The notes under the pieces were generated by a model. The model saw nothing but the letters and a program-made list of their open reading frames with translations. It was not told the DNA's origin and ran no database searches. From Leeuwenhoekiella aequorea (lineage in GTDB: Bacteria; Bacteroidota; Bacteroidia; Flavobacteriales; Flavobacteriaceae): a DNA stretch of 64,000 nucleotides. The stretch is taken from contig NZ_QOVM01000006.1 of NCBI RefSeq assembly GCF_004104375.1, positions 1-64,000 on the forward strand, in the 5' to 3' direction. Shown here piece by piece: positions 1-13,723 of the stretch; the first letter of the stretch is position 1; the number at the start of each line of letters is the position of its first letter. A program made the position numbers and the translations under genes.

Positions 1-93
1 GATCTGTAGTTACAGATTTTAGCAAAGGATACGTATGTCTCAAATTTAATGTAGAAAAGAGTTGTTTTTTACCTCAGTTCTTTGTTGTAACAC
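1..93 (-). repeat. Partial attC-like recombination site at window edge
   Basis: On the minus strand GTGTTACAAC (93-84) starts six bases after the stop of the 111-aa membrane protein gene. It is the exact reverse complement of GTTGTAACAC, which opens the same cassette at 476-467. By analogy with the three complete sites in this array it is the inverse-core end of a further attC-like site whose other end lies outside the window. The remaining bases contain TTTGCTAAAA, similar to TTTGCTAAAT in the neighbouring site at 1681-1818. Seen: the 10-bp complement. Inferred: the rest of the site. Confidence 0.55.
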
Positions 94-99
94 GTTTTT

Positions 100-435
100 T
101 TATTCAGCCCAACCGTGATAAATATGTAACATAATCAGTAAAATAGTCAGTCCAAAAATTATAAATCCGTTTATTTTATTTTTTCTCAAACTCCAAAATC
201 CAATTCCGAGTAAAATTCCGAAAGCTATTCCGTAAGTCAAATTCACGTACGAGTAAAGTTCAGCCGTTCTGTAATAATAAGGAACAGGTCCTTCTCCGCC
301 AAAAGGATAAAATTCGGTTTCTTTTTTAATTCCAATTTTATAAAATTCAGCGAGTCCAAAAAACGAATAGAATCCGCTCAAAAGAATTGCAATTCCAGTT
401 ATTATTTTTTCGAATATGGATTTTTCTGTTTTCAA
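100..435 (-). CDS. Small three-helix membrane protein, cassette-borne
   Basis: A 111-residue protein of unknown function with three predicted membrane segments (about residues 10-30, 62-80 and 88-106) and basic residues between them, so an inner-membrane protein is likely. The start is TTG: the codon just upstream is a stop and there is no ATG until near the C-terminus. The gene almost fills its cassette, with the stop six bases from the inverse core of the next recombination site. I recognise no family. The cassette position suggests mobile cargo, probably expressed by read-through or a local promoter in the preceding site. Confidence 0.7.
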   Translation of the reverse strand: MKTEKSIFEKIITGIAILLSGFYSFFGLAEFYKIGIKKETEFYPFGGEGPVPYYYRTAELYSYVNLTYGIAFGILLGIGFWSLRKNKINGFIIFGLTILLIMLHIYHGWAE

Positions 436-466
436 TTATTTGGTTAGAGTGTCGGTTTGGTCAAAT

Positions 467-603
467 GTGTTACAACGGTCTCGGCTATGAGTAGTTGCGT
501 GGTTTAGCGGTTAACTTTGCAAATACACACCAAACTGAAAATCCGCGAGGATTTTCAGAAGTAGGCGAGAACAAGCAATTACTTATAGCCATTGTTAGGC
601 AAA
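467..603 (-). repeat. attC-like site between CHAT and membrane-protein cassettes
   Basis: Imperfect palindrome of about 135 bp. Read on the minus strand it opens with TTTGCCTAAC (603-594) and closes with GTTGTAACAC (476-467). The arms pair as AACAATGGCTATAAGTAATT against CGGCTATGAGTAGTTGC, with the closing arm about three bases longer, like the extrahelical bases of attC sites. The centre holds a nested hairpin with stem CTGAAAATCC/GGATTTTCAG and loop TCGC (535-558). The opening core is the complement of GTTAGGCAAA, which begins the preceding cassette. It shares most of its closing half with the site at 1681-1818. Confidence 0.82.
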
Positions 604-604
604 G

Positions 605-1660
605 TTATTTTTTCGGTTTTACAATTATTAAATCCTCAGAATTAATTCCTTCTTTAATAAATAATTCAGGTGTTTCTTCCTCGCTGATATCTTCTAGCAT
701 AAGAAGTGCTATAGCTTGTTCGAAAGATTTTTTGACAGATAAACCAAAACCGATGGAAGAATAAAATTGAGATGAAAATATTCTTGCAGCTTCGTCTCCG
801 ATTGAAGTATTCATTCCAATTGTTGCTTCAACATATTCAGATACCGCTTCGGCCTGATTTTTAGAATAACAAGTGTTGAAAAAGACTAATCTAATTCCGT
901 CTGAAGAAGCCATAATTGTTTGTACAATTGCCTCTTTACTAACTATTTTAGTTCTACCATAATTAGTTTGAAAAATGATTTCATCATTATCTGATCCGTG
1001 TCCGCTAAAGTGAATTATTGATGGTTTGTACTCATTAATAGCTTGTAATAAGTCTATCGGTTGAACTGCCCAGCAGGTTTCAAACTTAACAGAATCTCTA
1101 TGCTTAGATTTCCGTATCATTTCAGATATTGCTCTAGCTTCTTCGTCTAATCTTAATTGTTGTTGGTCAATTGGATTTGATGCAAGAAATAAGACAACAA
1201 TTTTTTCAGGAATATTTTTTAATTCTTCAATTTGATATCGTGTTTCGGTATGTAAATTATTATGATGTTGAAGTGTTGAACCAATATTCCTAAGGTTTTG
1301 TTCTTGTTCTCTTCTTAATTTATCTGCTTCAGCTTTTCTTTTTTTATCAATAGAAGCTAATTCCTTGTCAACTTTAGTTTGAGCGTCTTGAATTTCTTTA
1401 TTCTTTTTTCCAATCTTAGTTTCTATATCCGCTATTTTCTTGTAAGAATTAGCAAGGTCTTTTTCATATCTAGTTATCTCTCTTAGTTTAGATTGAATTG
1501 TACTAGTTGATTTAGTCCGATTAATAGCTTCACTCGCTCTATTAATTTTAATTGTTGTATCGGATATTTTTTTTTGCTCTTTGGCTTTATCTGTCAAAAG
1601 CTTAGTCAAATCGCTTTGTTTTCTGGATAGATTATTTCTGTGTGAATCAATTAAAGCCAT
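605..1660 (-). CDS. CHAT-domain (caspase-like) protein with N-terminal coiled coil, cassette-borne
   Basis: 351 residues. Residues 1-150 are a long charged coiled coil (Lys/Glu/Asp/Ile heptads). Residues 153-345 are a CHAT domain, the clan CD peptidase fold of caspases: strand VVLFLASNP, then His221 in HFSGHG and Cys264 in FFNTCYS form the expected His-Cys dyad. CHAT proteins include proteases of bacterial immune and cell-death systems, for example TPR-CHAT/Craspase and gasdermin-activating proteases. Here no partner such as a gasdermin, NTPase or sensor is seen within the cassette, so the coiled coil may be the regulatory part. The gene is cargo of an integron-like cassette: it starts 24 bases after the core at 1684-1690 and stops one base before the next extended core. 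Catalytic residues intact; function inferred. Confidence 0.85.
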   Translation of the reverse strand: MALIDSHRNNLSRKQSDLTKLLTDKAKEQKKISDTTIKINRASEAINRTKSTSTIQSKLREITRYEKDLANSYKKIADIETKIGKKNKEIQDAQTKVDKELASIDKKRKAEADKLRREQEQNLRNIGSTLQHHNNLHTETRYQIEELKNIPEKIVVLFLASNPIDQQQLRLDEEARAISEMIRKSKHRDSVKFETCWAVQPIDLLQAINEYKPSIIHFSGHGSDNDEIIFQTNYGRTKIVSKEAIVQTIMASSDGIRLVFFNTCYSKNQAEAVSEYVEATIGMNTSIGDEAARIFSSQFYSSIGFGLSVKKSFEQAIALLMLEDISEEETPELFIKEGINSEDLIIVKPKK

Positions 1661-1680
1661 TTTTTTAGTTTCGATTTAAT

Positions 1681-1818
1681 TTTGCCTAACGTGTTTGTGT
1701 ATGATTTCGTTGCGTGTTTCAGCAACTAATTTAGCAAATACAAACCGAATAGAAAATCCGCGAGGATTTTCGTAAGCAGTAGATTACTAGCAATGAATTA
1801 TACACGGTGTTGCCCACA
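1681..1818 (-). repeat. attC-like site between CarboxypepD_reg and CHAT cassettes
   Basis: Imperfect palindrome of about 138 bp. The minus strand opens with TGTGGGCAAC (1818-1809) and closes with GTTAGGCAAA (1690-1681). Arms ACCGTGTATAATTCATTGC and GCAACGAAATCATACACAAA pair with bulges, and the closing arm is four bases longer. The central nested hairpin GAAAATCCTCGCGGATTTTC (1771-1752) is identical to that in the site at 467-603. The closing core GTTAGGC and its complement GCCTAAC fit the integron GTTRRRY/RYYYAAC consensus exactly. Confidence 0.85.
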
Positions 1819-1825
1819 GTATTTT

Positions 1826-2719
1826 TTAATTCGTAAGTGTTAATTCAATTGTTAAAATTCCATAATTATCTAAATACGGTTTGGGGCTATTTCCTTTAAA
1901 TCTTTCTACTTTTTCCCATTTCCCATTTTTATATAACCAACTATTTGTGTTTTTTGTAACAGGTAAAAGTCCAACTTTTGGTTCATAAAGTGTTTTCTCA
2001 ATTATTTGATTAGAGTCTTGGGTTGGAATCGAAATATTAAATTCATTTTCTTCAATTATTAACCATTCGTAGCTTACAAAAAGTCCGTTATCAGGAAAGT
2101 AAATATTTAAGTCCGATAAATCAATTTCCAAATTTTTCGTTCCCTTTTTAGAAATTCCAATTATATTTTTTCCGAAAATAGGTTTATCAGGTTGCCCATT
2201 GTCTCCAACTGAATAAAACCTGATATTGAATTTCGCATTTTTAATGTCACTAAAAATTCTAAATTTTATACTTTTTAGAAAAGGTGTTTCTAAATAAGAT
2301 GTATCATAATCAAATAACCTAGCTTTTATTTCAGGATTTTTTTCTGTAGCGTAGTAAAATCCTATTTCAGAATCCTGAAAAGCTCCAATTATTTTTTCTT
2401 TACTGTCTTTTTTTGTTGAAACAATTACTTCTTCTAATTCATAGGATTTTGGAATTAGGAATATTTCAGAAGGCACTTCTTTTAGATTGATTTTCATGGT
2501 CTCATATCCTAAACTTGAAAGCACTAAATTTTTTCCTTCAGAATTGTCAATTAAAAACTCACCGTTTTCGTCTGAAGTAGTTCCGATATTTTCATTTTCA
2601 ATCCAAATGTTAACATAGGATATTTTTTCTTTAGTTTTCTTGTCAAATATCACTGCCTTTATTTGACTAAAACACAAGTTAGAAACAAGGAAAACTATTA
2701 TCGGAAGCAGGTTTTTCAT
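1826..2719 (-). CDS. Secreted CarboxypepD_reg-like domain protein, cassette-borne
   Basis: About 297 residues. A signal peptide (MKNLLPIIVFLVSNLCFSQ) precedes a carboxypeptidase-regulatory-like (transthyretin-fold) domain at about residues 20-100, with the usual pattern of IxGxVxD-like start, NIGTTSDENGEF and SLGYE. The rest (about 110-297) is beta-rich and not recognised. Such domains in Bacteroidota usually face the periplasm or cell surface. I chose the ATG at 2719 rather than an upstream in-frame ATG at 2755 because the upstream one lies inside the recombination site and the signal peptide begins at the later one. The start follows core GTTGCCC by five bases, as is common in gene cassettes. 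Function unknown. Confidence 0.8.
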   Translation of the reverse strand: MKNLLPIIVFLVSNLCFSQIKAVIFDKKTKEKISYVNIWIENENIGTTSDENGEFLIDNSEGKNLVLSSLGYETMKINLKEVPSEIFLIPKSYELEEVIVSTKKDSKEKIIGAFQDSEIGFYYATEKNPEIKARLFDYDTSYLETPFLKSIKFRIFSDIKNAKFNIRFYSVGDNGQPDKPIFGKNIIGISKKGTKNLEIDLSDLNIYFPDNGLFVSYEWLIIEENEFNISIPTQDSNQIIEKTLYEPKVGLLPVTKNTNSWLYKNGKWEKVERFKGNSPKPYLDNYGILTIELTLTN

Positions 2720-2721
2720 AT

Positions 2722-2794
2722 TGTGGGCAACGGTTCGTGTATGGTGTCGTAGCATCCCGAAGGGTGCTATGCACTATACATATTGTTAGCTTTT
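2722..2794 (-). repeat. Short attC-like site closing the first cassette
   Basis: A 73-bp imperfect palindrome. The minus strand opens with AAAAGCTAAC (2794-2785) and closes with GTTGCCCACA (2731-2722). Arms AATATGTATAGTGCATAGCA and TGCTACGACACCATACACGA pair around a short hairpin loop, CCCTTCGGG. The closing arm is three bases longer than the opening arm. The opening core complements GTTAGCTTT at the start of the same cassette (3273-3265). It lacks the nested CGCG hairpin of the two longer sites. Confidence 0.82.
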
Positions 2795-2799
2795 AGTGC

Positions 2800-3007
2800 T
2801 TTCTTGACCACTTAATATTCATTCGTATTTTTAATTTTTATGTATTTGTTAAATTCTGCATACTTTCTAAATTTTAAAAATATTTTTCAATTCAGATTTC
2901 GAGTTTTCAATTCAGATTTTGATTCCGCAAACGAGTTAAAATATCAAATGAAATTGAATTCCGAGTTTGAGTGAGATTTTAGTATTTTTCAAATTCTGTA
3001 AATTAAT
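2800..3007. other. Non-coding tail of first cassette with 20-bp tandem repeat
   Basis: This AT-rich stretch has no convincing reading frame. It holds two adjacent 20-bp units that differ at two or three positions (2884-2903 and 2904-2923, both beginning TTTTCAATTCAGATTT). A partial third copy (ATTCAGATTTTGA) overlaps the 3' end of the small gene that follows on the plus-strand map. The units may be duplicated or decayed copies of the 3' end of that gene. Confidence 0.5.
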
Positions 3008-3217
3008 TCATTCAGATTTTGACTCTTTATTATCATTGATGTTATTCAATTTCAAAATAAAAATGAAGTTTAAAACAGAAAATAAAATGATTAGAATCGA
3101 TGATGTTTTAGAATTTATCAACTCAAATAATTCAAATATTTGATTTAATCCTAAAATGATTAATCCAATACTTGATATCAGAATAATTATAGATACTTTT
3201 TTATTTCTCATTTTCAT
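3008..3217 (-). CDS. Small two-helix membrane protein in first cassette
   Basis: A 69-residue protein with two hydrophobic segments (about residues 8-28 and 38-58), a basic N-terminus (MKMRNKK) and an acidic/polar tail (NDNKESKSE). I recognise no family. It is the only candidate gene of the cassette next to the recombinase, starting about 55 bases after the core at 3268-3273. Codon 3 is also Met, so the start could be two residues later. It may be a small toxin-like or accessory membrane protein, but nothing in the sequence proves that. Confidence 0.55.
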   Translation of the reverse strand: MKMRNKKVSIIILISSIGLIILGLNQIFELFELINSKTSSILIILFSVLNFIFILKLNNINDNKESKSE

Positions 3218-3264
3218 TAATTTCTTTTTTTAGAATTCAATTTGCGTAAACTTGCTCCTGCATT

Positions 3265-3301
3265 AAAGCTAACAATTGGATATGTGTACATGTACACATA
3301 T
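3265..3301 (-). other. Putative primary insertion site (attI-like) with 22-bp palindrome
   Basis: Between the recombinase stop and the first cassette the minus strand reads a perfect 22-bp palindrome (3301-3280, centred on GTACATGTAC) and then CCAATT and the core GTTAGCTTT (3273-3265). The core is the complement of the inverse core closing the first cassette. The position, one core without a partner inverse core, and a different structure from the cassette sites make this the attI candidate. Only sequence layout supports it. Confidence 0.55.
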
Positions 3302-3321
3302 ATCTATTTTAGTTTCAGTAG

Positions 3322-4449
3322 CTAATCTAAGGGATTTTTGATCTTTAAAAAAGTATTTGTTGCTACATGAGTATATATTTCAGTAGTTTTTGTACTCTGG
3401 TGACCTAACAAAACTTGTATTTGGCGTAAGTCTATTCCGGCTTCTAATAGATGCGTAGCAAAACTATGTCGTAAAGTGTGTGCGCTTATTTTTTGTATAA
3501 TCCCTGCTTTGCTTGCAGAGCGGTTTATAATTTTCACAATACTTGTACTGCTGTATTGATTTCCATTTTGTCCTTCAAAAAGAAATTTTTGTGGTTTATA
3601 ACATTTATAATAAATGCGTAAATTTTTTAATACAGTTTGTGATAATAACGTATAACGATCTTTTTTACCCTTAGCTTGTATCACACGTATAAGCATTCGT
3701 TTACTATCTATATCTGCAATTTTCAAGTTAAGAAGCTCGCTACGCCTCAGCCCAGAACTATATAGAAGTTGTATAACACATTTGTGCTTAACGTTAGTGG
3801 TAGCATCAATAAGACTTAGTATTTCTTCTTTCGAGATAAAAGTAGGTAATTTCTTTTCTTTTCTAGGTCTTTCTAGTTCATAAAAACGATTAGGCATTCC
3901 TAATACACTTTCATAATAGAATTTAATAGCATTTATAGCTTGGTTTATGTATGAATTAGATTTATCACTGCGTATTAATGCTTGGAGGTATCTGCGTACG
4001 TGCATTTCATTAAGAGTTGATATTTCTTTATCGGAATAGTAATTAATATAATGTTCAAAAAACTGAATATAAGTACGTACAGTATTAAGTGCATAGCGCT
4101 TAAGTTCAAGTTTTAGAAGATACTCTTCGGGGCATCGCTTGTAATCTTTTGGAAGGTTTCTATTGCGATAATAATCTACGTTAATTATAACATTTTTCTT
4201 GACTACAGGTTTATTCGCTAGAAATCTGTTGTAATTAATCCAGGCTATGCCATTAAATGTTTTATAGATTTGAGCAAGATTAGCTTTAGAATTAATTATG
4301 TATACTAAGTTATAGGTAGTGCTCCATTTTGGCGAATCAAGATTTTTTATCAATGCCTGAATTTTTTTATCAGGAGCAAATTTTATCCCTATCATTTTCT
4401 GATTGTTGATCATGATATTGTATAACGTAATATTTTTTAGAGCACTCAC
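3322..4449 (-). CDS. Tyrosine recombinase of the cassette array (integron-integrase-like)
   Basis: 375 residues. An N-terminal Bacteroidota-type domain (1-90, including KWSTTYNLVYI), a SAM-like core-binding domain (about 105-190) and the catalytic domain (200-370) are visible. Catalytic residues: Arg235 (SSGLRRSE), Lys260/262 (AKGKKDR), His324 and Arg327 (HTLRHS), His350 (LLGHQ), Tyr359 (IYTHV). Arg-to-His spacing is 89 residues, near XerD (about 96) and far shorter than IntI1 (about 131), so the IntI-specific insertion is missing. The C-terminus IKNPLD does recall the RSPLD ending of integron integrases. It lies in the same direction as the cassettes, with its 3' end at the array, as in spirochaete integrons. 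It probably catalyses cassette excision and capture. Confidence 0.85.
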   Translation of the reverse strand: MSALKNITLYNIMINNQKMIGIKFAPDKKIQALIKNLDSPKWSTTYNLVYIINSKANLAQIYKTFNGIAWINYNRFLANKPVVKKNVIINVDYYRNRNLPKDYKRCPEEYLLKLELKRYALNTVRTYIQFFEHYINYYSDKEISTLNEMHVRRYLQALIRSDKSNSYINQAINAIKFYYESVLGMPNRFYELERPRKEKKLPTFISKEEILSLIDATTNVKHKCVIQLLYSSGLRRSELLNLKIADIDSKRMLIRVIQAKGKKDRYTLLSQTVLKNLRIYYKCYKPQKFLFEGQNGNQYSSTSIVKIINRSASKAGIIQKISAHTLRHSFATHLLEAGIDLRQIQVLLGHQSTKTTEIYTHVATNTFLKIKNPLD

Positions 4450-4525
4450 GGTTTCAATACTACAATAGAATCAAATTTTAAAAGGTATATTAGTCGTATA
4501 ATATACTTTTTTAAAAGGATTGCTT

Positions 4526-4900
4526 ATGAGAACTTGTCCGGTTTGTGATTCAGTTATAGCTGGTAGAATTGATAAAATATTCTGCTCTGTAAAATGCAAA
4601 TCAATTTGTCAATACGAAAGAAGACAGTCTAAAGAAGTATTCTATTTAGAAGTAGATCGCCAACTCAAAACAAATAGAAAGTTATTAAAGACATACAGCT
4701 ATAAAGGCTATACTACAGTTCAGAAGGCTGAACTTATAAACGATGGCTTTAACCCTAATTTCTTCACGCATTATTGGAAAAACAAGAGGGGAGATGTTTA
4801 CTTATTCGTTTATGATTACGGATTCCTCGATCTGGAAAAATCTGGTAAATCAAAATATCTAATTGTAATGTGGCAAAAGTATATGGAAAAGAAAGCTTAA
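4526..4900 (+). CDS. Unknown protein with N-terminal zinc-ribbon motif
   Basis: About 124 residues. The N-terminus has a CPVC (residues 3-6) and CSVKC (about 20-24) pair, a likely zinc ribbon, followed by a helical basic linker and a compact C-terminal region rich in aromatic residues (YLFVYDYGFLDL). No enzymatic motif is seen. I chose the ATG over an in-frame TTG two codons upstream. It is divergent from the cassette recombinase, with 76 bases between them that must hold both promoters. It ends just before the displaced tRNA-Leu terminator. A DNA-binding or regulatory role is possible but unproven. Confidence 0.7.
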   Translation: MRTCPVCDSVIAGRIDKIFCSVKCKSICQYERRQSKEVFYLEVDRQLKTNRKLLKTYSYKGYTTVQKAELINDGFNPNFFTHYWKNKRGDVYLFVYDYGFLDLEKSGKSKYLIVMWQKYMEKKA

Positions 4901-4957
4901 TTTTAAAACATTAATTTTAGGCCAAAAATTCTGTCAGTATTTTGAAAGTATAAAAAG

Positions 4958-4995
4958 AAAAACCCCTGTAAACATTGCGTTTACAGGGGTTTTTT
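4958..4995. terminator. Strong bidirectional terminator, original tRNA-Leu terminator
   Basis: A 16-bp perfect stem AAAAACCCCTGTAAAC/GTTTACAGGGGTTTTT with loop ATTGC gives T-runs on both strands. It directly follows the 15-bp tRNA-Leu 3'-end fragment in the tRNA reading direction, so it was probably the tRNA terminator before the 11.4-kb element inserted. On the plus strand it can terminate the zinc-ribbon gene. Confidence 0.85.
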
Positions 4996-5010
4996 GTACC
5001 CGGAATGGGA
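4996..5010. other. Attachment site, distal end of the tRNA-Leu element
   Basis: GTACCCGGAATGGGA is identical to the 3' end of tRNA-Leu(GAG) at 16368-16382 in the same orientation. Identity stops at both edges of these 15 bases. Together they bound the 11.4-kb element. This copy is the displaced original tRNA end, because the terminator next to it continues in tRNA orientation. Confidence 0.85.
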
Positions 5011-5126
5011 GTATAATAGCGCAATTCATTGAAATTTTAATAATACAAAAACAATCAGATAGACTAGTGTTTATAGGGTTTTTACTGTTATTTATATTGC
5101 CTAAGGTATTATTAAATTGCGAGTTG

Positions 5127-5145
5127 GTTAACTAGATGTTAACTA
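5127..5145 (+). repeat. 19-bp element-end repeat, left copy
   Basis: GTTAACTAGATGTTAACTA, two GTTAACTA units three bases apart, occurs here and in the same orientation at 16301-16319, near the other end of the element. It lies just upstream of the integrase -7 element. Likely recombinase arm-type binding sites, which here could also let the integrase or an excisionase control its own promoter. Confidence 0.65.
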
Positions 5146-5151
5146 ATAAGC

Positions 5152-5159
5152 TATCTTTG
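5152..5159 (+). promoter_or_regulatory. -7 element of the island integrase promoter
   Basis: TATCTTTG fits the Bacteroidota -7 consensus TAnnTTTG and lies about 20 bases before the integrase ATG. A TTGG upstream (5124) is four or so bases further than the usual spacing, so the -33 part is weak. The 19-bp element-end repeat occupies the spacer. Confidence 0.5.
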
Positions 5160-5180
5160 AACCTTTAAAAGGTATGTATA

Positions 5181-6494
5181 ATGGCTTCTATTAAATTTTT
5201 AATTCAAGGAAAAAATTCCCCGGCTAATATTTATGTTCAGTTGTCAGTTGGGCGTGGTAAGGTATTTAAACGTAAAACTGGTTATTCTATAGACCCCAAA
5301 GACTGGGGTAAAAAAGGGATGCCTATTGACAGGAATACTAGCCTTAAAAACCTAAAGGCAGACTTGAACAAGTTAAGTAGTAATTTAGAAAATTGCCTTA
5401 ATGATGCAGTTAGTTTAAAAGAGGTTGTAAATGGTGATTGGTTGCAACTGCAAATCAATATAATTAATGGTCAAGTTATTGGAGATGAAAAGGAAAAGCT
5501 AACTAATCATATTCAATATATTATTGATAATGCGCACAGAGTTAAAAAAGCTAATAATCAAATAGGATTGTCTCAAAGCCGTATTAAATCTTACAAGCTT
5601 TTTAAAAATGTGATCTCAAGATTTGAGAAAGAGATAAACAAAGGACAATCATTTTTTATTAGGGATGTTGGGTTTGATTTTGGGGAACAGTTTTCGGAAT
5701 GGTTGTTTAGTAAAAAATACAGTATTAATTATGTGGGTAAAAATATTGATAATCTAAAAGCTGTTTGTCGTGATGCTGAAAGGAGAGGTATAGAAACCTC
5801 AACACAATTAAAAAGAATATCGAGTTTTACAAAACAGACAAATAGCGACGAGGTAATAATTTTAAGCGAATCTGAGCAAGAATCAATTGCCGATTTAAAA
5901 CTTAATAGGGAAGCTTTGATAAACGCACGTAAATGGCTGCTATTAGGTTGTCAACTGGGGCAAAGATTTAGTGATTTGATACGTATTACTCCTGATATGA
6001 TTAAGGCTAGTAATGGTATAAAAATAATAGAGTTAACTCAAATAAAGACGAGCAAACTAGTAGCAATACCATTAATGCCAAAAGCTATAGAAATTATAGA
6101 AAATGGTATGCCTTACCCTATAGCGTTACAAAATTTCAACGAGTATATTAAGGATATCTGTAGAGAGGCTGGATTTAATCAACCTACTAAAGGATCCGCT
6201 TACATCGAAACAGAAGAAAAGAGTAAAAATAAACCTAAAACACCAGGGATTTATCCAAAGTGGAAACTAATCGGGTCCCACGTCTGCAGGCGTTCTTTTG
6301 CCTCTAACCTATACGGAAAAATACCCACTGCATTATTGATAAATATTACAGGACATGGAACCGAAAAAATGTTTTTAAAATATATTGGCCGCACTGCTTA
6401 TGATAATGCTTATCAAATGATGGAATATTTTGGTAAGCTACAGGCCAAAGAGAAAAAAGAGGCACAAATGCAAGTATTAAAAAACGCTAACTAA
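5181..6494 (+). CDS. Tyrosine integrase of the tRNA-Leu element
   Basis: 437 residues, Bacteroidota phage/transposon-type integrase. The N-terminal arm-binding beta domain (1-80, with RKTGYSIDPKDWGKKG) is followed by a SAM-like domain (about 125-215) and the catalytic domain (225-430). Catalytic residues are visible in LGQRFSDL (Arg), TQIKTSKL (Lys), SHVCRRSF (His, Arg), ITGHG (His) and LKYIG (Tyr). It is the first gene inside the attachment site at 4996-5010 and reads into the element, the usual layout for a tRNA-targeted integrase. It is unrelated in detail to the cassette recombinase at 3322-4449. Intact, so the element may still move. Confidence 0.93.
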   Translation: MASIKFLIQGKNSPANIYVQLSVGRGKVFKRKTGYSIDPKDWGKKGMPIDRNTSLKNLKADLNKLSSNLENCLNDAVSLKEVVNGDWLQLQINIINGQVIGDEKEKLTNHIQYIIDNAHRVKKANNQIGLSQSRIKSYKLFKNVISRFEKEINKGQSFFIRDVGFDFGEQFSEWLFSKKYSINYVGKNIDNLKAVCRDAERRGIETSTQLKRISSFTKQTNSDEVIILSESEQESIADLKLNREALINARKWLLLGCQLGQRFSDLIRITPDMIKASNGIKIIELTQIKTSKLVAIPLMPKAIEIIENGMPYPIALQNFNEYIKDICREAGFNQPTKGSAYIETEEKSKNKPKTPGIYPKWKLIGSHVCRRSFASNLYGKIPTALLINITGHGTEKMFLKYIGRTAYDNAYQMMEYFGKLQAKEKKEAQMQVLKNAN

Positions 6495-6506
6495 ATAATT
6501 AAAATT

Positions 6507-6701
6507 ATGAAAATTGTTAAAATTGAAGGTCGAAACGAGTTGCACATTATAGGAACACGGGAGTTACTTTCGGATAATGAAATTAAAAGAATAGCACTTG
6601 AAAATGACGTACAGAAATATTCTAGTAAAGTTTATGAAGTATTTAGGCACTCAAGGGTTAACTCTGGATTTAAACACTTCGCATACCAATTAAATTATTA
6701 A
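6507..6701 (+). CDS. Small unknown protein downstream of integrase
   Basis: A 64-residue protein, MKIVKIEGRNELHIIGTREL to HFAYQLNY, basic and without membrane segments. It lies 12 bases after the integrase and 12 before the next gene, so it is probably co-transcribed. I recognise no family. Small proteins here in integrative elements are often recombination directionality or regulatory factors, but no HTH is obvious. Confidence 0.6.
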   Translation: MKIVKIEGRNELHIIGTRELLSDNEIKRIALENDVQKYSSKVYEVFRHSRVNSGFKHFAYQLNY

Positions 6702-6713
6702 GCATTAATTAAA

Positions 6714-7637
6714 ATGAGTCCTGTACTTGAAATTTATAAAGAACTTGATAAGTTTGATAACATATCAGATAAGCTTGATTGTTTATCAAAATACCACTTG
6801 TCTTTTAATGGTATTTACAGGGCTAATTATAATTCAATTACAGAGGGCAACCTTTCAATTCATCAGTTAGTAAAAAAGTTTGAAAAAAAGCATTTTCCGG
6901 ATACTAAGAATATTCCAGAATTTACTTTTTGGTTCCTAAAGTTTAACGCACTAAAGTATTGTGAAACCTATTTGCTAAATGATAGACTCACAAGAAGGCT
7001 CAATTCAGAGGTTAGAATAGAAGAAGCGACTATTGAGCTTGAAAAAATAGAAAAGGCTGAGAAATTAGCCCACACGCTGGTTATTGATAACGATATTGAT
7101 ACCGATTTAAAGTATAAAGATGAAAAAGGGTATTTGTATTTGATGAACCCTAAAGATTTTCCTCAGCCAGAATACCAAACCAAAGAAATTAGGCGTGTTC
7201 TGAATGGTTACTATGAATCTAATCCTACAGAACACGCTTATACGGTTGCTCAGAGTCCAGAGGTTAAAATCTATGCTAAGCATATTATTTTAAAAGGTTA
7301 TTTAAAAAAACTCAAAGCAGAAGTTGAAATTGTAAATGATAATCACAAATTAAAATTTGATCCTAATTATTTTAATAAGGAGGGCTTCAATTTGTTTTTA
7401 TACTTACTAGAGAATTATTCAAAAACCACGATAAACAAGTATTCGTACATATGGTTCTTTTTGAAAAATCATAATCCGAAGCCGGAGCAAATAAAATTTC
7501 TACATACTCAAACTAGCTATAAGGAAATGATCGATGAAAAATTTAAAGTGAGTATAAGCTATAAGAAAGCAGGGTATAAATGGGAGGAAGATGTCCTGCC
7601 AACTTTAAAACGTATTGCAAGTAATTTTTTTCATTAG
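6714..7637 (+). CDS. Unknown element protein, 307 aa
   Basis: A soluble, helical, lysine- and glutamate-rich protein with no signal peptide or membrane segment. Residues 85-130 (RLTRRLNSEVRIEEATIELE and following) look coiled-coil. The C-terminal third is rich in aromatic residues (NKYSYIWFFLKNHNP). I see no replication or nuclease motif. It is in the integrase operon by spacing and same strand. Proteins of this kind recur in Bacteroidota mobile elements without assigned function. Confidence 0.65.
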   Translation: MSPVLEIYKELDKFDNISDKLDCLSKYHLSFNGIYRANYNSITEGNLSIHQLVKKFEKKHFPDTKNIPEFTFWFLKFNALKYCETYLLNDRLTRRLNSEVRIEEATIELEKIEKAEKLAHTLVIDNDIDTDLKYKDEKGYLYLMNPKDFPQPEYQTKEIRRVLNGYYESNPTEHAYTVAQSPEVKIYAKHIILKGYLKKLKAEVEIVNDNHKLKFDPNYFNKEGFNLFLYLLENYSKTTINKYSYIWFFLKNHNPKPEQIKFLHTQTSYKEMIDEKFKVSISYKKAGYKWEEDVLPTLKRIASNFFH

Positions 7638-7735
7638 GGTTGTTTAAACAATAACTCACCCAAACTTACCTTTTACTACCCTTTTATCAAACCCCTTTAA
7701 GGCAATCTATTTGCTTCATAACTAAAACAAACGTT

Positions 7736-8020
7736 ATGGAGACAAATCAAATTATTCTACAAGGCACAACTAGTCAACAACTCATTGAGGACCTAAAAAA
7801 TGCCTTCCGCGAAGTATTAGAGGATAGTAAACCTCAAACTAACTCTTCGATCGACAAACAATTAATGACTAGAGAAGAAGTCTGCGATTTATTGCAAATC
7901 AATAAATCCACACTTTGGAAACGTACAAAGACTGGCAAAATTCCTAGTTACGGTCAGGGTCGCCGCATTTACTATAAGCGCAGCGAAGTAATGGAGTCGT
8001 TAACCCCACTTAAAAAATAA
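7736..8020 (+). CDS. Excisionase-like helix-turn-helix protein
   Basis: 94 residues. After a variable N-terminus (1-40), residues 43-92 form an HTH_17/MerR-type winged helix: LMTREEVCDLLQINKSTLWK, then KIPSYGQGRRIYYKRSEVME. This is the common Bacteroidota excisionase/AlpA-type fold that binds DNA with the RIYYKRSEV wing. In a tRNA-integrated element it is the natural candidate for recombination directionality or regulation. A 98-base gap upstream may hold its promoter; the next HTH gene starts five bases after it. Confidence 0.8.
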   Translation: METNQIILQGTTSQQLIEDLKNAFREVLEDSKPQTNSSIDKQLMTREEVCDLLQINKSTLWKRTKTGKIPSYGQGRRIYYKRSEVMESLTPLKK

Positions 8021-8025
8021 AAGCT

Positions 8026-8334
8026 ATGCGTACCGCAGATACACAAAGCCTTTATAATTCAGGAGGCAATATAAATGAATTTACTGAATTAACCGGTGAT
8101 GTTTCAAGAGTTTATGATGTGCTAAAGCAATCGCCCTTAACAATGAAAGAGGTTGATCTAAGAACTGGTATTATGCGTGAAAGCGTATGCAGACACGTTA
8201 ACAATCTTCTTAAGGCTGGACTAATCGCCAGAACGAGAGTAAGACGGTGTTCAGTTACAGGTTATTCAAATGTAAATGAGTATACCGGAGATTCTAGTTT
8301 ATTTCCTGAAACTCGTCAGCTTTCACTTTTTTAA
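8026..8334 (+). CDS. Winged helix-turn-helix protein
   Basis: 102 residues. Residues 25-75 form a winged HTH of MarR/ArsR style: SRVYDVLKQSPLTMKEVDLR, GIMRESVCRHVNNLLKAGLI and a basic wing ARTRVRRCSVTGYSNVNEY. The fold resembles proteins of phage and mobile elements that tell apart DNA ends or regulate late genes. It is tightly linked to the excisionase-like gene before it and the large tail-like gene after it (11 bases), which suggests one transcript. Confidence 0.7.
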   Translation: MRTADTQSLYNSGGNINEFTELTGDVSRVYDVLKQSPLTMKEVDLRTGIMRESVCRHVNNLLKAGLIARTRVRRCSVTGYSNVNEYTGDSSLFPETRQLSLF

Positions 8335-8345
8335 AACTAACTACA

Positions 8346-11300
8346 ATGCTTAGACAGACTTTTATATCCGGTAGAATGAATCAGGATGCCGATATTCGCT
8401 TACTACCCAAAGGCGAATATCGCGAAGCATACGGTATTGAAATAATTAATAGTGAAGGCTCAGACGTTGGTGCAATTGAGCCAATGCTCTCTAATAAGAA
8501 ACTCACTAGCTACAACGTAGGCGCTAACCCTCTTGATATGGGTGACTTTGCAGACGAGTTCCGCAAGAAAATATATTGGCTTGTCCTTTCAGATTTAGGA
8601 AGCTTTTTATTTGAGTGGGATGATACAAATAAGATACAATCATTAGTATTAGGAGATACGCGCCCGGAGGCTACACGTGTATTTTCACTCAAGAAAGAAA
8701 ACCTGATTACAGCAATGGTCAAGGTCACTACTCAAAATATCGAGGATGATTTATTGCTGTTTACTGATGATAACATGCAGCCAATTTGCATAAATATTGA
8801 ACGTGCTAAATCCTGGGGAATAAATGGCTTTGTTGAGGAAGATATTCTACTCATTAAAAAACCACCGCGTTATGCCCCTAAGATAACACCTACCTATACC
8901 AATGACGGCAGCAATAACCTTGAAGAACGGTTTTTCTTATTTGCTACACGCTTCAGATATTTAGACGGGGAATATAGCGCACCTTCGGACTTTACTAACT
9001 ACAACTTTAACCCTAAGCCGTTTAATCTTGATTATTTTACCCTTGACAATAAGGGAATGATCAACGCTTTTAATGCGGTAAAAATTGATTTCAATACAGG
9101 AGAAAAGCAGGTTACAGAAATTCAGCTTTTAGTAAAAGAAAGCTTGAGTAATTCGTTAAACGTAATTGAAACCTTTAGTAAAGAGGCTGAGGGATGGGGA
9201 GATAACTTAACCAAGAGTTTTGTATTTTCAAATAACAAAACAATCACGCCTCTTCCCGATGATCAATTGCTTCGTTTATTTGACAATGTACCTTTAAAAG
9301 CAAAAGCTTTATCGCTTATTGAGAATATACCGGTATTCAGTAATTACTTAGAAGGCTATGACCTAAAAGACGAGGACGGCAACGACATTAATATCGATTA
9401 TAATATTGCTCTTCAAAATAACATAATTGAAAGCGGTGACGATTTTAATGTTTCGGTAGTTCCTTCAAATAAGGCAAAAATAACCAACCCAAACAACTAC
9501 GCATTAAGTGAAGGTCGGAGAATCATTATTGATTTATCTACGGAAATAGATGGATTGCCGGGTTATGACAATTCGTTTTTCCATACGCTTGACGCCGAAT
9601 ACCCAACTCTTAATGATGTTTTTCAAAGTCTTGAATTTCAAAACCTACTAGAAGTAATTAATAGTGATTTTCAAAATAATTTTAACCAGGCAGGTGATTA
9701 TACGATTCCACCAACTTACACCCCTACACTAGATCCTGAAATCACGTATGCGCTAGAAGGTGGTATCGCAACGTTTACCATTAGCCCGGCTACATTTACA
9801 GACTCAGATAATGGCGGCGCTACCGTAGAAGTACCCGTTACCTTTGCAGAATCTACCAATTTTGGTATTGTGGATGATATTAATAGCGGTACGTGTAAGA
9901 CAAACCGAAACTATGAAGTAGGAGTTGTTTACATGGATAAGTATGGCAGACGTTCTACTGTACTCACTTCAAAAAATAACACCCTTTTTATTCCACAGGA
10001 ATATTCGGTTTTTCAAAACAAGTTGGTTGCAACCATAAATAGTAAAGTACCATATTGGGCTGATCGCTATAAGCTAGTTGTAAAATCTACGCCATTAGCA
10101 TATCAAACACTATACATTACCGAGTTCTACAATGACGATTTCTTTACATGGTGTAAGCTTGAAGGCAAAAACAAAGACAAAATTTCAATAGGCGATTTCC
10201 TGATTATAAAAAAAGCAGGTGATCAAATTATTACAGAACCTATAAAAATTAAGGTACTTGACATTAAAGAACAGGCAGATGATTTTATCAAGAATAATAC
10301 CGATGAAAATGACAACGATATAATTGAGCGTGGCGGTCTTTATATGAAAATAAGACCTACTTCTGATTTTTCAATGGATAGAGATGATTTTGACGTTGAT
10401 ACAAGGGAATCTCCAGTAGGCTCAAATAAAGACGGTTTCCCAAGAACAATACTTGATTTGTTTACAAGCGCAGGAAGTCCAGATTTGCAAGAGTTAGCAA
10501 TACCCGCCGGAACATCTATTACACTACAACTGAATAGTTCTCGTAATTATGATGCTGGTTGGAAAAACATAAATTATGATAATGAGTTTTATACGCAACG
10601 AGACTATAATACTATAGAGGAATGGTTTAAAGAAATAATACTGAAAAGGTTTTCATTAAAAGCAGATGACGGAAGTGGTGAGTTTGATTATGATTATTTA
10701 AAAAGCTCCGACCCTGATAGAGAAAAAAATATGGAACTATTTCGTGATGAGAATGGCTATTTAAAACTTATTGTTTGGGGATTACTTTCTGGTGGAACAC
10801 GTAACCGCAGAGGCCGAGTAAGTGCAAAAATTATAGTACGTACCGGTAGCGGCGTATACGCCTTTGAAACGCTACCAAAACAAGCTGATACAAACGCCTT
10901 TTTTGAAACTGCCCAATGCTTTGATATTATAAACGGCAATCATACGGGAAATACCCAAGACCAATATTTTGACAATGGAGATCCTGCAATTATAGAAATG
11001 GACTTTTTCAATTGCTATACTCAGGGCAACGGCATTGAAAGTTACCGGGTACGTGACGAGTTCAATACAAACTATCTAAGCATAGACACAAGACCTTCCG
11101 CTACAAGCGTTGAGGAATACCGTGCAGTACGCAGGTTCGCAGATATGACTTACGGTAAGGCTTATATCGAAAGCACAAATATTAACGGCTTAAATGAGTT
11201 TAATTTGAGTCTGGCTAATTTCAAGGAGCTCGACAAGCATTATGGTAGTATTCAAAAAACCATTAACCGCGAAGGTGATATTCTGGTACTTCAAGAAGAA

Positions 11301-13007
11301 AAAGCCGGATATGTATTGTTTGGTAAAGACCTTTTAGCAACGGCCAACGGAGAAATGGCATTAAAGAGAATTTCTGAAATTCTAGGGCAATACATGCCCT
11401 ATGCCGGTCATAATGGCATAGGTAATAATCCAGAGAGTGTTGCAATAGATGGTAACCGTGTGTATTGGGTGAATGCACGTAGAGGTACACCGGTACGATT
11501 ATCTATTGATGGAACTACCGAAATAAATTACGGTATGGTTTCTCATTTTAGGAACCTGTTTATTCAAAACCCTACTTCAAGAAAGATAGGAGGTTATGAC
11601 CCGTATTTTAAAAAGTACACCTTAACCATAGAAGATGAAGTTGCACGTACCTTAAATGCGTATTGTGGTAATATTATTCAGAAAACCATAACAGAGCCAT
11701 TCACTTACATTTTAAATATCAATTACTTGTTAGGTGATACCGTTTTAAACTTCAACGTTTCAGAAGGAGAAGTAAACATTGTTGCGACCTACGCCGGAAT
11801 CCCATATACTGCCAATGGAGTGACCGGCCTCGCAGCTTTAACAATACCGCGTACCGATTTAGAAGATACTCAAATTGTAATTACGATTACACCGGTAAGT
11901 TCTGCTGCGACAATACAAGCTGCGCATACCTGCCCTACCGGAATACCTATGAAAGTAATCAGTATAGTACTTGCTGATGAATCCGATTTAGGCCGAACAA
12001 TGATAAACCGTTATCGATGGGGAGCAAGTTCATTCTTTAGCGAGGAACATTTATTTGAAAATTCTGAAGTAAGCAAGTTTGTTATTGAAGAAGGCCTTGA
12101 AGGAACTGCCAAATATCCTAAGCGAGGAACCAATGTGAATATCCAGGCTTATAAAGACGGTGCCAATACTGGAAGTTTTAAAGTAGATCGCGAGAATAAG
12201 CTAGGGTATTTAATAAGCAGCAACAATTATACTGATGCAGACATAGCAACGATACTTGCTGAGGCTACATTTATTGATACTACAAATACTCAGATTTCAT
12301 TAACCAACTTTATTGATCAGGCAAGTTTCCCATTTAACAGACCTAATGGCGATGAAAACCTGTATATGATTTGGGATTATAGGGATAATGAATTGGCGAT
12401 TAATGCTGATACCAAAATCATATTTGCTTTTGATGGTTCAGGATCAATGGACGGAACTTTAGCGCCATTGGAAACAATGAAAGACACCATTCTTAAGGAC
12501 CGGTTATTGCCGCTTTATGGTAATGACTCAGCTTTGTATGATGCAAGCGTGGAAGTTATCCCTTGGGGAACAGGAGATCAATACCCAGAAGTAAACGAAC
12601 AGACTTTAGCAGCTCTAAATATGTTTGGTACCACACCAGAAGGTAATGTAATTGTAATGGTATTTCAAGATGAAGCCAGCCCTATTTATACCGATGGAAC
12701 TTTTGACCCTACAGAAGCTAGTACAGCGCCTTACGATACTGATTTAGCAACTTTGAGAGGAAGATTAAATTCATTCCCGAATAACTATTATAGAGGGGTT
12801 ATCTTTCAGGTAGATCCTGCAAGCGGAACCAGCTTCAAAGATTTTGTAAGTGCTATTCAATTAGGTACAGGAAATTACGCAGGAGCAAATGGATTAAGTG
12901 ATCGCAATGAGTTCAACTACAAGTACGATATTGCTGATGGAGAAACACCGGCATACTATCTGGATAAGATTGTAGAAGCATTAACCGAATTAGGATATAA
13001 CCTATAA
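8346..13007 (+). CDS. Giant phage tail/stabilization-like protein with C-terminal vWA domain
   Basis: 1553 residues, the dominant gene of the element. The N-terminus (G9-x-M-N-x-D-x-D...R18-L-x-P-x-G-E-Y-R, then SEGSDVG at 36-42) matches, as I remember it, the opening of stabilization/tail proteins of crAss-like and related short-tailed phages of Bacteroidota. Residues 50-330 have the alternating beta pattern of a propeller-like virion protein (FATRFRYLDGEYSAPSDF). The C-terminal 200 residues form a von Willebrand A domain with a MIDAS motif DGSGSM (Asp1363, Ser1365, Ser1367). No signal peptide or membrane anchor. No other structural phage gene lies nearby, so it is an orphan. Phage origin is a family-level inference; the vWA motif is directly visible. 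Confidence 0.65.
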   Translation: MLRQTFISGRMNQDADIRLLPKGEYREAYGIEIINSEGSDVGAIEPMLSNKKLTSYNVGANPLDMGDFADEFRKKIYWLVLSDLGSFLFEWDDTNKIQSLVLGDTRPEATRVFSLKKENLITAMVKVTTQNIEDDLLLFTDDNMQPICINIERAKSWGINGFVEEDILLIKKPPRYAPKITPTYTNDGSNNLEERFFLFATRFRYLDGEYSAPSDFTNYNFNPKPFNLDYFTLDNKGMINAFNAVKIDFNTGEKQVTEIQLLVKESLSNSLNVIETFSKEAEGWGDNLTKSFVFSNNKTITPLPDDQLLRLFDNVPLKAKALSLIENIPVFSNYLEGYDLKDEDGNDINIDYNIALQNNIIESGDDFNVSVVPSNKAKITNPNNYALSEGRRIIIDLSTEIDGLPGYDNSFFHTLDAEYPTLNDVFQSLEFQNLLEVINSDFQNNFNQAGDYTIPPTYTPTLDPEITYALEGGIATFTISPATFTDSDNGGATVEVPVTFAESTNFGIVDDINSGTCKTNRNYEVGVVYMDKYGRRSTVLTSKNNTLFIPQEYSVFQNKLVATINSKVPYWADRYKLVVKSTPLAYQTLYITEFYNDDFFTWCKLEGKNKDKISIGDFLIIKKAGDQIITEPIKIKVLDIKEQADDFIKNNTDENDNDIIERGGLYMKIRPTSDFSMDRDDFDVDTRESPVGSNKDGFPRTILDLFTSAGSPDLQELAIPAGTSITLQLNSSRNYDAGWKNINYDNEFYTQRDYNTIEEWFKEIILKRFSLKADDGSGEFDYDYLKSSDPDREKNMELFRDENGYLKLIVWGLLSGGTRNRRGRVSAKIIVRTGSGVYAFETLPKQADTNAFFETAQCFDIINGNHTGNTQDQYFDNGDPAIIEMDFFNCYTQGNGIESYRVRDEFNTNYLSIDTRPSATSVEEYRAVRRFADMTYGKAYIESTNINGLNEFNLSLANFKELDKHYGSIQKTINREGDILVLQEEKAGYVLFGKDLLATANGEMALKRISEILGQYMPYAGHNGIGNNPESVAIDGNRVYWVNARRGTPVRLSIDGTTEINYGMVSHFRNLFIQNPTSRKIGGYDPYFKKYTLTIEDEVARTLNAYCGNIIQKTITEPFTYILNINYLLGDTVLNFNVSEGEVNIVATYAGIPYTANGVTGLAALTIPRTDLEDTQIVITITPVSSAATIQAAHTCPTGIPMKVISIVLADESDLGRTMINRYRWGASSFFSEEHLFENSEVSKFVIEEGLEGTAKYPKRGTNVNIQAYKDGANTGSFKVDRENKLGYLISSNNYTDADIATILAEATFIDTTNTQISLTNFIDQASFPFNRPNGDENLYMIWDYRDNELAINADTKIIFAFDGSGSMDGTLAPLETMKDTILKDRLLPLYGNDSALYDASVEVIPWGTGDQYPEVNEQTLAALNMFGTTPEGNVIVMVFQDEASPIYTDGTFDPTEASTAPYDTDLATLRGRLNSFPNNYYRGVIFQVDPASGTSFKDFVSAIQLGTGNYAGANGLSDRNEFNYKYDIADGETPAYYLDKIVEALTELGYNL

Positions 13008-13018
13008 GAAGCGCAGAA

Positions 13019-13723
13019 ATGAGCAAAAAAAGCAGTCAAATAAGATACCTTAATTTCCCTATTCAGATGCTAGGCGGTTTTTTGCTTGATAGTAAGGGGG
13101 TTTTAGGTGATATTATGAACTATTCTGTTTATGCTCATTCAGTTGAAAATCTTGAGTTTGGTAATGAGGAAGAAGCATTTGTTTCTAGTGCAAAGTATTT
13201 CAGAATATCATTTGGCAATGTTAAAACCTCTATTAAAAATGGCGAGGCTTTATATGATTCATTAGGCGATGGTAGCCCGATGGTTGGCATTGACGTAAAT
13301 ATGCTGTTTGACTACTATAAAAATCACAAATCAATTTTTCAGAAACGTTGTCTTTTAGGGTATTTAGCAATTAGGAGTATTTTAATGGATAAAGCATATT
13401 GTAAAACCACAAATGATAATTGGTTTTCTAGAATGGATGGAAAGACTTCAAAAATGCCTAAAGAAAAGCTTTCTAAAGAGATACAGGATTTTCACAATGA
13501 ATATCAGGCGAAAAAAATTAAAACAGAATTGTCTTTAAATTGGAATTTAAAAACCTATTCAAAATATACCAGGGGGTTTTATGTGAGTTTTAAATTGGAC
13601 TTGGATGATTTGGTATTTAACGCTGAAAAAAAACGTAAATCCTACCAGGCAAAGAAGCTTAAGAACGATACGGAAATGGCCCGGCTTAAAGCTTTAGAAA
13701 GATTGAAAAATATAGATTTTTAA
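13019..13723 (+). CDS. Unknown protein following the tail-like gene
   Basis: 234 residues, soluble, lysine-rich. An N-terminal half with YLNFPIQMLGGFL and GDIMNYSVYAHSV is followed by a basic C-terminus (KKRKSYQAKKLKNDTEMARL) that may bind nucleic acid or form a coil. It starts 11 bases after the giant tail-like gene, so the two are probably one operon and may act together. I recognise no domain. Alternatives include a chaperone or assembly partner of the neighbour or a regulatory protein. Confidence 0.6.
   Translation: MSKKSSQIRYLNFPIQMLGGFLLDSKGVLGDIMNYSVYAHSVENLEFGNEEEAFVSSAKYFRISFGNVKTSIKNGEALYDSLGDGSPMVGIDVNMLFDYYKNHKSIFQKRCLLGYLAIRSILMDKAYCKTTNDNWFSRMDGKTSKMPKEKLSKEIQDFHNEYQAKKIKTELSLNWNLKTYSKYTRGFYVSFKLDLDDLVFNAEKKRKSYQAKKLKNDTEMARLKALERLKNIDF

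Follow-up and report, generated by a model that had tools for sequence, protein, structure and literature searches.

In integron integrases (IntI), the Lys motif and the HxLRH motif of the catalytic domain are separated by an additional domain, the I2 region. The left end of the present window, a 64,000-nt stretch of Leeuwenhoekiella aequorea DNA, raises the question of whether a tyrosine recombinase that lacks this domain can serve an array of gene cassettes and, if it does, how it would recognize folded cassette sites.

A tyrosine recombinase beside a cassette array

The minus strand of the window carries, in this order, a recombinase gene (3322-4449), 48 nt and four cassettes, and every ORF lies on the strand of the recombinase. 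A preliminary description of the locus, which named no strand, had placed the gene upstream of the array and co-directional with it, as is the case here. The cassettes span 3273-2785, 2731-1809, 1690-594 and 476-84, each bounded by a matched pair of inverted 9-10 bp cores, and form a chain with a score of 19, compared with at most 6 in shuffled sequence. Chance matching of cores was excluded by the shuffles together with opposite-side controls. The 48 nt from the recombinase stop codon to the first core, GTTAGC, form a putative attI (3271..3321, minus strand) that contains a perfect 22-nt palindrome (3280-3301), 6 nt from the core.

Cassette 1 (2785..3273, minus strand; cores GTTAGCTTT) holds a small ORF (3008-3217), and its attC-like site (2722..2794) is of a short form, with 53 nt between cores. 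Cassette 2 (1809..2731, minus strand; cores GTTGCCCACA; site 1681..1818) holds an ORF (1826-2755) for a protein with a CarboxypepD_reg-like domain, and cassette 3 (594..1690, minus strand; cores GTTAGGCAAA; site 467..603) one (605-1660) for a weakly matched CHAT-domain protein. Cassette 4 (84..476, minus strand; cores GTTGTAACAC) contains an ORF at 100-435, and the contig ends within its site. For the three complete sites the folding (bottom) strand is the plus strand. Because the window begins at the end of its contig, the array is truncated. Beyond the window it was traced by a covariance model alone. Built from the sites, this model matched the genome at 20 places, nearly all of which lie at this contig end and on two further contigs (C7 and C9), where the matches begin near the contig ends, suggesting that the array continues there.

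The recombinase has 375 aa and a GTG start that aligns in register with the ATG starts of its relatives. The catalytic residues R235, K260, H324, R327, H350 and Y359 are all found, and all six are invariant among 34 relatives. As described earlier, R235 and H324 are 89 residues apart and no extra segment precedes HTLRHS, as in XerD: the spacing between the Lys motif and HTLRH is 64 residues, compared with 105-108 in IntI1 and all 29 measured IntI proteins of Bacteroidota and with 72 and 68 in E. coli XerD and XerC, so the IntI insertion is absent, as it is throughout the family of recombinases that share the N-terminal domain described below. In agreement with this, the alignment to the V. cholerae IntI structure (2a3v) is interrupted at the insertion, where residues 278-299 of the query face residues 178-242 of the chain, while archaeal XerA structures align unbroken through the region. 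The integron integrase model TIGR02249 gave 198.7 bits, below its curated cut-off of 265, and the closest curated equivalog model was XerA_Arch (NF040815), with 223.6 bits, just above its cut-off of 220 and over the core and catalytic domains only. By score, by the lack of the additional domain and by its position outside the IntI clade (see below), the recombinase does not belong to IntI. The system is integron-like by architecture, judged on its sequence, and its recombinase is not an integron integrase as these are now defined.

We consider it probable that the locus is an integron-like system in which a XerA-like recombinase works on folded single-strand sites without an I2 helix, perhaps aided by its N-terminal domain. 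Under this model, a non-IntI tyrosine recombinase of XerA type would run chromosomal, integron-like gene capture in Bacteroidota, acting on the core junction just 3′ of its own gene, which would function as attI, and on cassette sites of about 120 nt. Of each site, the bottom strand alone would be used, folded as an imperfect hairpin, with the choice of strand encoded in the hairpin by two invariant G.T pairs found only on the bottom strand and by a bulge of 2-3 nt, so that inserted cassettes would have their genes directed away from the recombinase. The HARP/XPB-like N-terminal domain may help to recognize the distorted hairpin, replacing the I2 helix of IntI.

The N-terminal domain and the phylogenetic position

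About 105 residues precede the core domain, somewhat more than the 90 or so of the preliminary description, and they contain one predicted folded domain at roughly residues 5-78 (feature: residues 1-80; 4210..4449, minus strand). AlphaFold2 models it as beta-beta-alpha-beta-beta-alpha-beta (pLDDT 83). The HARP domain of SMARCAL1 came first both in a profile search of PDB sequences (4o66, E 0.02) and in Foldseek (E 0.23), the latter with XPB structures close behind. With VIA-align, the N-terminal damage-recognition domains (DRD) of XPB were on top (Z 6.0, 2.1 Å over 56 residues), HARP 4o66 had a Z of 3.8, and no structure stood far above the rest. Among 29 family members, three matched Pfam HARP (PF07443; best E 8.5e-4) and six matched DUF5710; the N-terminal domain of the window protein, searched alone, gave no Pfam HARP match. 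These separate weak lines agree in suggesting a weak resemblance to SMARCAL1 HARP and the XPB DRD, with which the domain shares the predicted fold order and a short sequence motif, although match scores are weak and those domains sit on helicases, not on recombinases. Given that HARP domains give SNF2 proteins annealing-helicase activity (PMC4035279), it is a reasonable guess, by analogy, that the domain recognizes the distorted hairpin. The earlier proposal had been that single-strand attC recognition arose separately, perhaps through this domain. That the same task is performed without the insertion is well supported by the anatomy, whereas the role of the domain is a suggestion.

Alternatively, and competing with our model on the domain only, the N-terminal domain could be regulatory or arm-binding and read the attI palindrome rather than folded attC, which we regard as possible but somewhat doubtful. 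Most of the clade of the window enzyme does have a palindrome, with up to 14 bp per arm, at a distance of 3-7 nt from the core, and recombinases of about 267 aa that lack the domain also adjoin arrays; yet close relatives do not have the same palindrome arms, and a clear palindrome is missing from a large part of the family's more remote half, in which the domain is retained. The attI palindromes are near-perfect, and their arms vary but remain complementary, so attI could itself also be read as a hairpin.

The recombinases of about 267 aa are Xer-like proteins from viral contigs (array-linked examples, mostly of this length, are found in L167, L174, L177, L180 and L190) with a Lys-to-His spacing of mostly 59 and neither the insertion nor the N-terminal domain. 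Of 34 such genes, 20 have a core-matched array on the 5′ side. Since this group lacks both elements and still adjoins arrays, absence of the insertion alone need not require the N-terminal domain, which may do something else. Cassette ORFs beside these recombinases share their strand and point towards them (45 vs. 1), and some of the sites beside them resemble those of the window system.

In a tree built with the insertion columns removed, IntI forms a single clade with support of 100/100 on a long stem, and the window enzyme lies outside it, grouping with the other members that carry the N-terminal domain among XerA-like enzymes. The best tree uniting IntI with this family is 35.6 log units worse, with a p-AU of 0.026 that is modest in a tree with long branches. 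These values favor a separate origin from IntI, short of proof, and bear out the expectation that the enzyme would not fall within IntI. A canonical IntI that had suffered a deletion is ruled out by the tree. We put forward, as a tentative idea that we would not yet call likely, that recombination of folded single-strand sites arose in Bacteroidota independently of IntI, through a XerA-like enzyme, a HARP/XPB-like hairpin reader and a choice of strand by G.T pairs.

Predicted folding of the cassette sites and signs of cassette movement

We collected 241 cassettes, with a median length of 680 bp and matched cores of 10 or 9 bp. In 216 of them the longest ORF is directed away from the recombinase, compared with 5 in the opposite orientation, and this ORF begins a median of 28 nt past the core. 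Tandem cassettes with matched core ends beside a tyrosine recombinase, one of the marks of an integron system, are found here. The sites, mostly 116-122 nt between cores, form the second such mark, attC-like imperfect hairpins of the bottom strand, according to sequence and fold evidence: the bottom strand is the better fold in 204 of 215 sites and in 56 of the 60 non-redundant ones, with an advantage of about 9 kcal/mol. In an alignment of 42 sites, pairing in the proposed stem holds for 92.7% of cells, and the covariation score is 0.415, compared with 0.147 in shuffled alignments and 0.055-0.093 in slid controls. Two pairs are G.T in 42/42 sites, corresponding to A.C mismatches on the top strand, and the first helix is followed by a bulge of 2-3 nt. 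In these patterns the sites carry the signature of selection on the folding of one of the two strands. Given that the two strands differ in folding, we infer that the sites are used as single strands, as are the folded bottom-strand sites of integrons (PMC8946536).

A system of Xer type working on double-stranded DNA, with duplex dif-like inverted boxes and with palindromes that serve to bind protein and do not fold into hairpins, would be in line with the XerA_Arch assignment, with the palindrome in the putative attI and with a recombinase that has no IntI insertion. It would, however, leave the preference for folding of one strand unexplained, and it is at odds with the two invariant G.T pairs and with stem bases that covary freely; we judge it unlikely. 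Free covariation of the stem, invariance of the G.T pairs and the preference for the bottom strand argue together that the sites are recognized by shape, not by sequence. We also looked in the sites for the promoter-like motif of Bacteroidota, TAnnTTTG, and dropped it (6/60 sites, compared with 2.6 in shuffled sequence).

Cassettes common to different genomes point indirectly to excision and insertion, with breaks at the cores. A 924-nt stretch that is 99.6% identical is common to Winogradskyella ursingii (L080) and a second genome (L073), whose flanks are unrelated and whose recombinases are only 37% identical. The identity begins at a GTT core and stops shortly past the next core, and in two other genome pairs it likewise halts at the next core or just beyond it. 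From its translation, the cassette common to L080 and L073 appears to encode a superoxide dismutase. In another array (L050, cassettes 2-5), a pair of cassettes of 1469 and 730 bp is repeated head to tail with 100% identity, suggesting a recent duplication of the two-cassette unit.

Relatives in Bacteroidota and comparison with known systems

In one family, 102 of the 149 genomes sampled encode a relative of the recombinase at E ≤ 1e-40; some of the matches begin near residue 100-114 and thus have no N-terminal domain. The named relatives that carry the domain are all from Bacteroidota (Flavobacteriia, Bacteroidia, Cytophagia, Saprospiria, Sphingobacteriia and Chitinophagia), the one exception being a weakly scoring archaeal MAG. 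Of 88 distinct genes that encode the domain, 62 have enough 3′ flank to be tested, and in 39 of these a core-matched pair begins no more than 150 nt from the 3′ end (4.9 expected from shuffles), while no cassette was found within that distance in the other 23. Most relatives with testable flanks therefore adjoin core-matched arrays, in line with what the preliminary description led us to expect. Across the phylum the first cassette starts 23-135 nt from the 3′ end of the gene. At the 5′ end, core-matched pairs are found in 7/88 genes (5.0 expected). Assemblies break less than 400 nt from the gene on the 3′ side in 18/88 cases and on the 5′ side in 0/88, as is expected if repeats begin on the 3′ side. 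The same detector linked IntI genes with arrays on their 5′ side, the expected one, in 12 of 35 cases (1.2 expected), which validates it, and gave no array link for XerA-like relatives without the N-terminal domain (2/46, compared with 3.2 expected).

It is very unlikely that the recombinase merely lies beside an array moved by another enzyme, such as a housekeeping XerC/XerD or a canonical IntI encoded elsewhere, as with cassette arrays that have no integrase of their own, a view to which two other Xer-like genes in the genome and the presence of sites in 6 of the 15 sampled genomes that have no strong match to the recombinase lend some weight, but which is opposed by the short distance between gene and first cassette across the phylum, by the lack of linkage for relatives without the domain, and by the fact that none of the matches listed in this genome reached the IntI cut-off. 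Overall, sites were found in 27 of 36 sampled genomes, including 21/21 of those with a relative of the recombinase. Five genomes without a strong match (G019, G054, G059, G071 and G144) have 4 to 36 sites; such genomes would hold either arrays without a nearby recombinase or arrays with a more distant one.

Like integrons, the window system has core-matched cassettes, compact co-oriented ORFs, a putative insertion point beside the recombinase gene, and imperfect-palindrome sites with bottom-strand folding, a bulge and a variable end. Matched cores of integrons are 7 bp, whereas those of the window system are 9-10 bp; it further differs from integrons in that its recombinase lies outside the IntI clade and has no I2 domain, in that its putative attI is 3′ of the gene, and in that strand polarity is marked by the two invariant G.T pairs. 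The enzyme resembles archaeal XerA and XerC/XerD in having core and catalytic domains without insertion, and differs from them in its link to arrays and its extra N-terminal domain. A co-directional layout of recombinase and array is already known from Treponema chromosomal integrons (PMC3607928), but these were described with intI, and the window enzyme is not an IntI by any of the three measures above.

Integron surveys pick out recombinases by the IntI-specific domain (PMC2426708, PMC9668308), and for Bacteroidetes the only newly found complete integron that IntegronFinder 2.0 reported was in Salinibacter (PMC9024848). Among published open-licence papers on integrons in Bacteroidota or Flavobacteria, we found no description of this system. 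Array-linked close relatives are common in this phylum, in which integrons were thought rare, and given the frequency of relatives and sites in the sampled genomes, many mobile cassettes may have escaped notice. The I2 helix has been proposed as the innovation that permitted single-strand recombination (PMC7790495); the window system questions this role and offers a second solution that can be tested. If its origin is indeed independent, there would be two or more routes to integrons, and gain of I2 just one among them.

The N-terminal part of the cassette 3 protein matches the candidate defence family PDC-S66 (E 3e-19), next to its weak CHAT-protease match; because of the PDC-S66 match, arrays of this kind may carry defence genes. 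The other side of the recombinase gene is occupied by phage-like genes (4520-13723), among them those for a second tyrosine recombinase (5181-6494) and a virion protein of 1553 aa.
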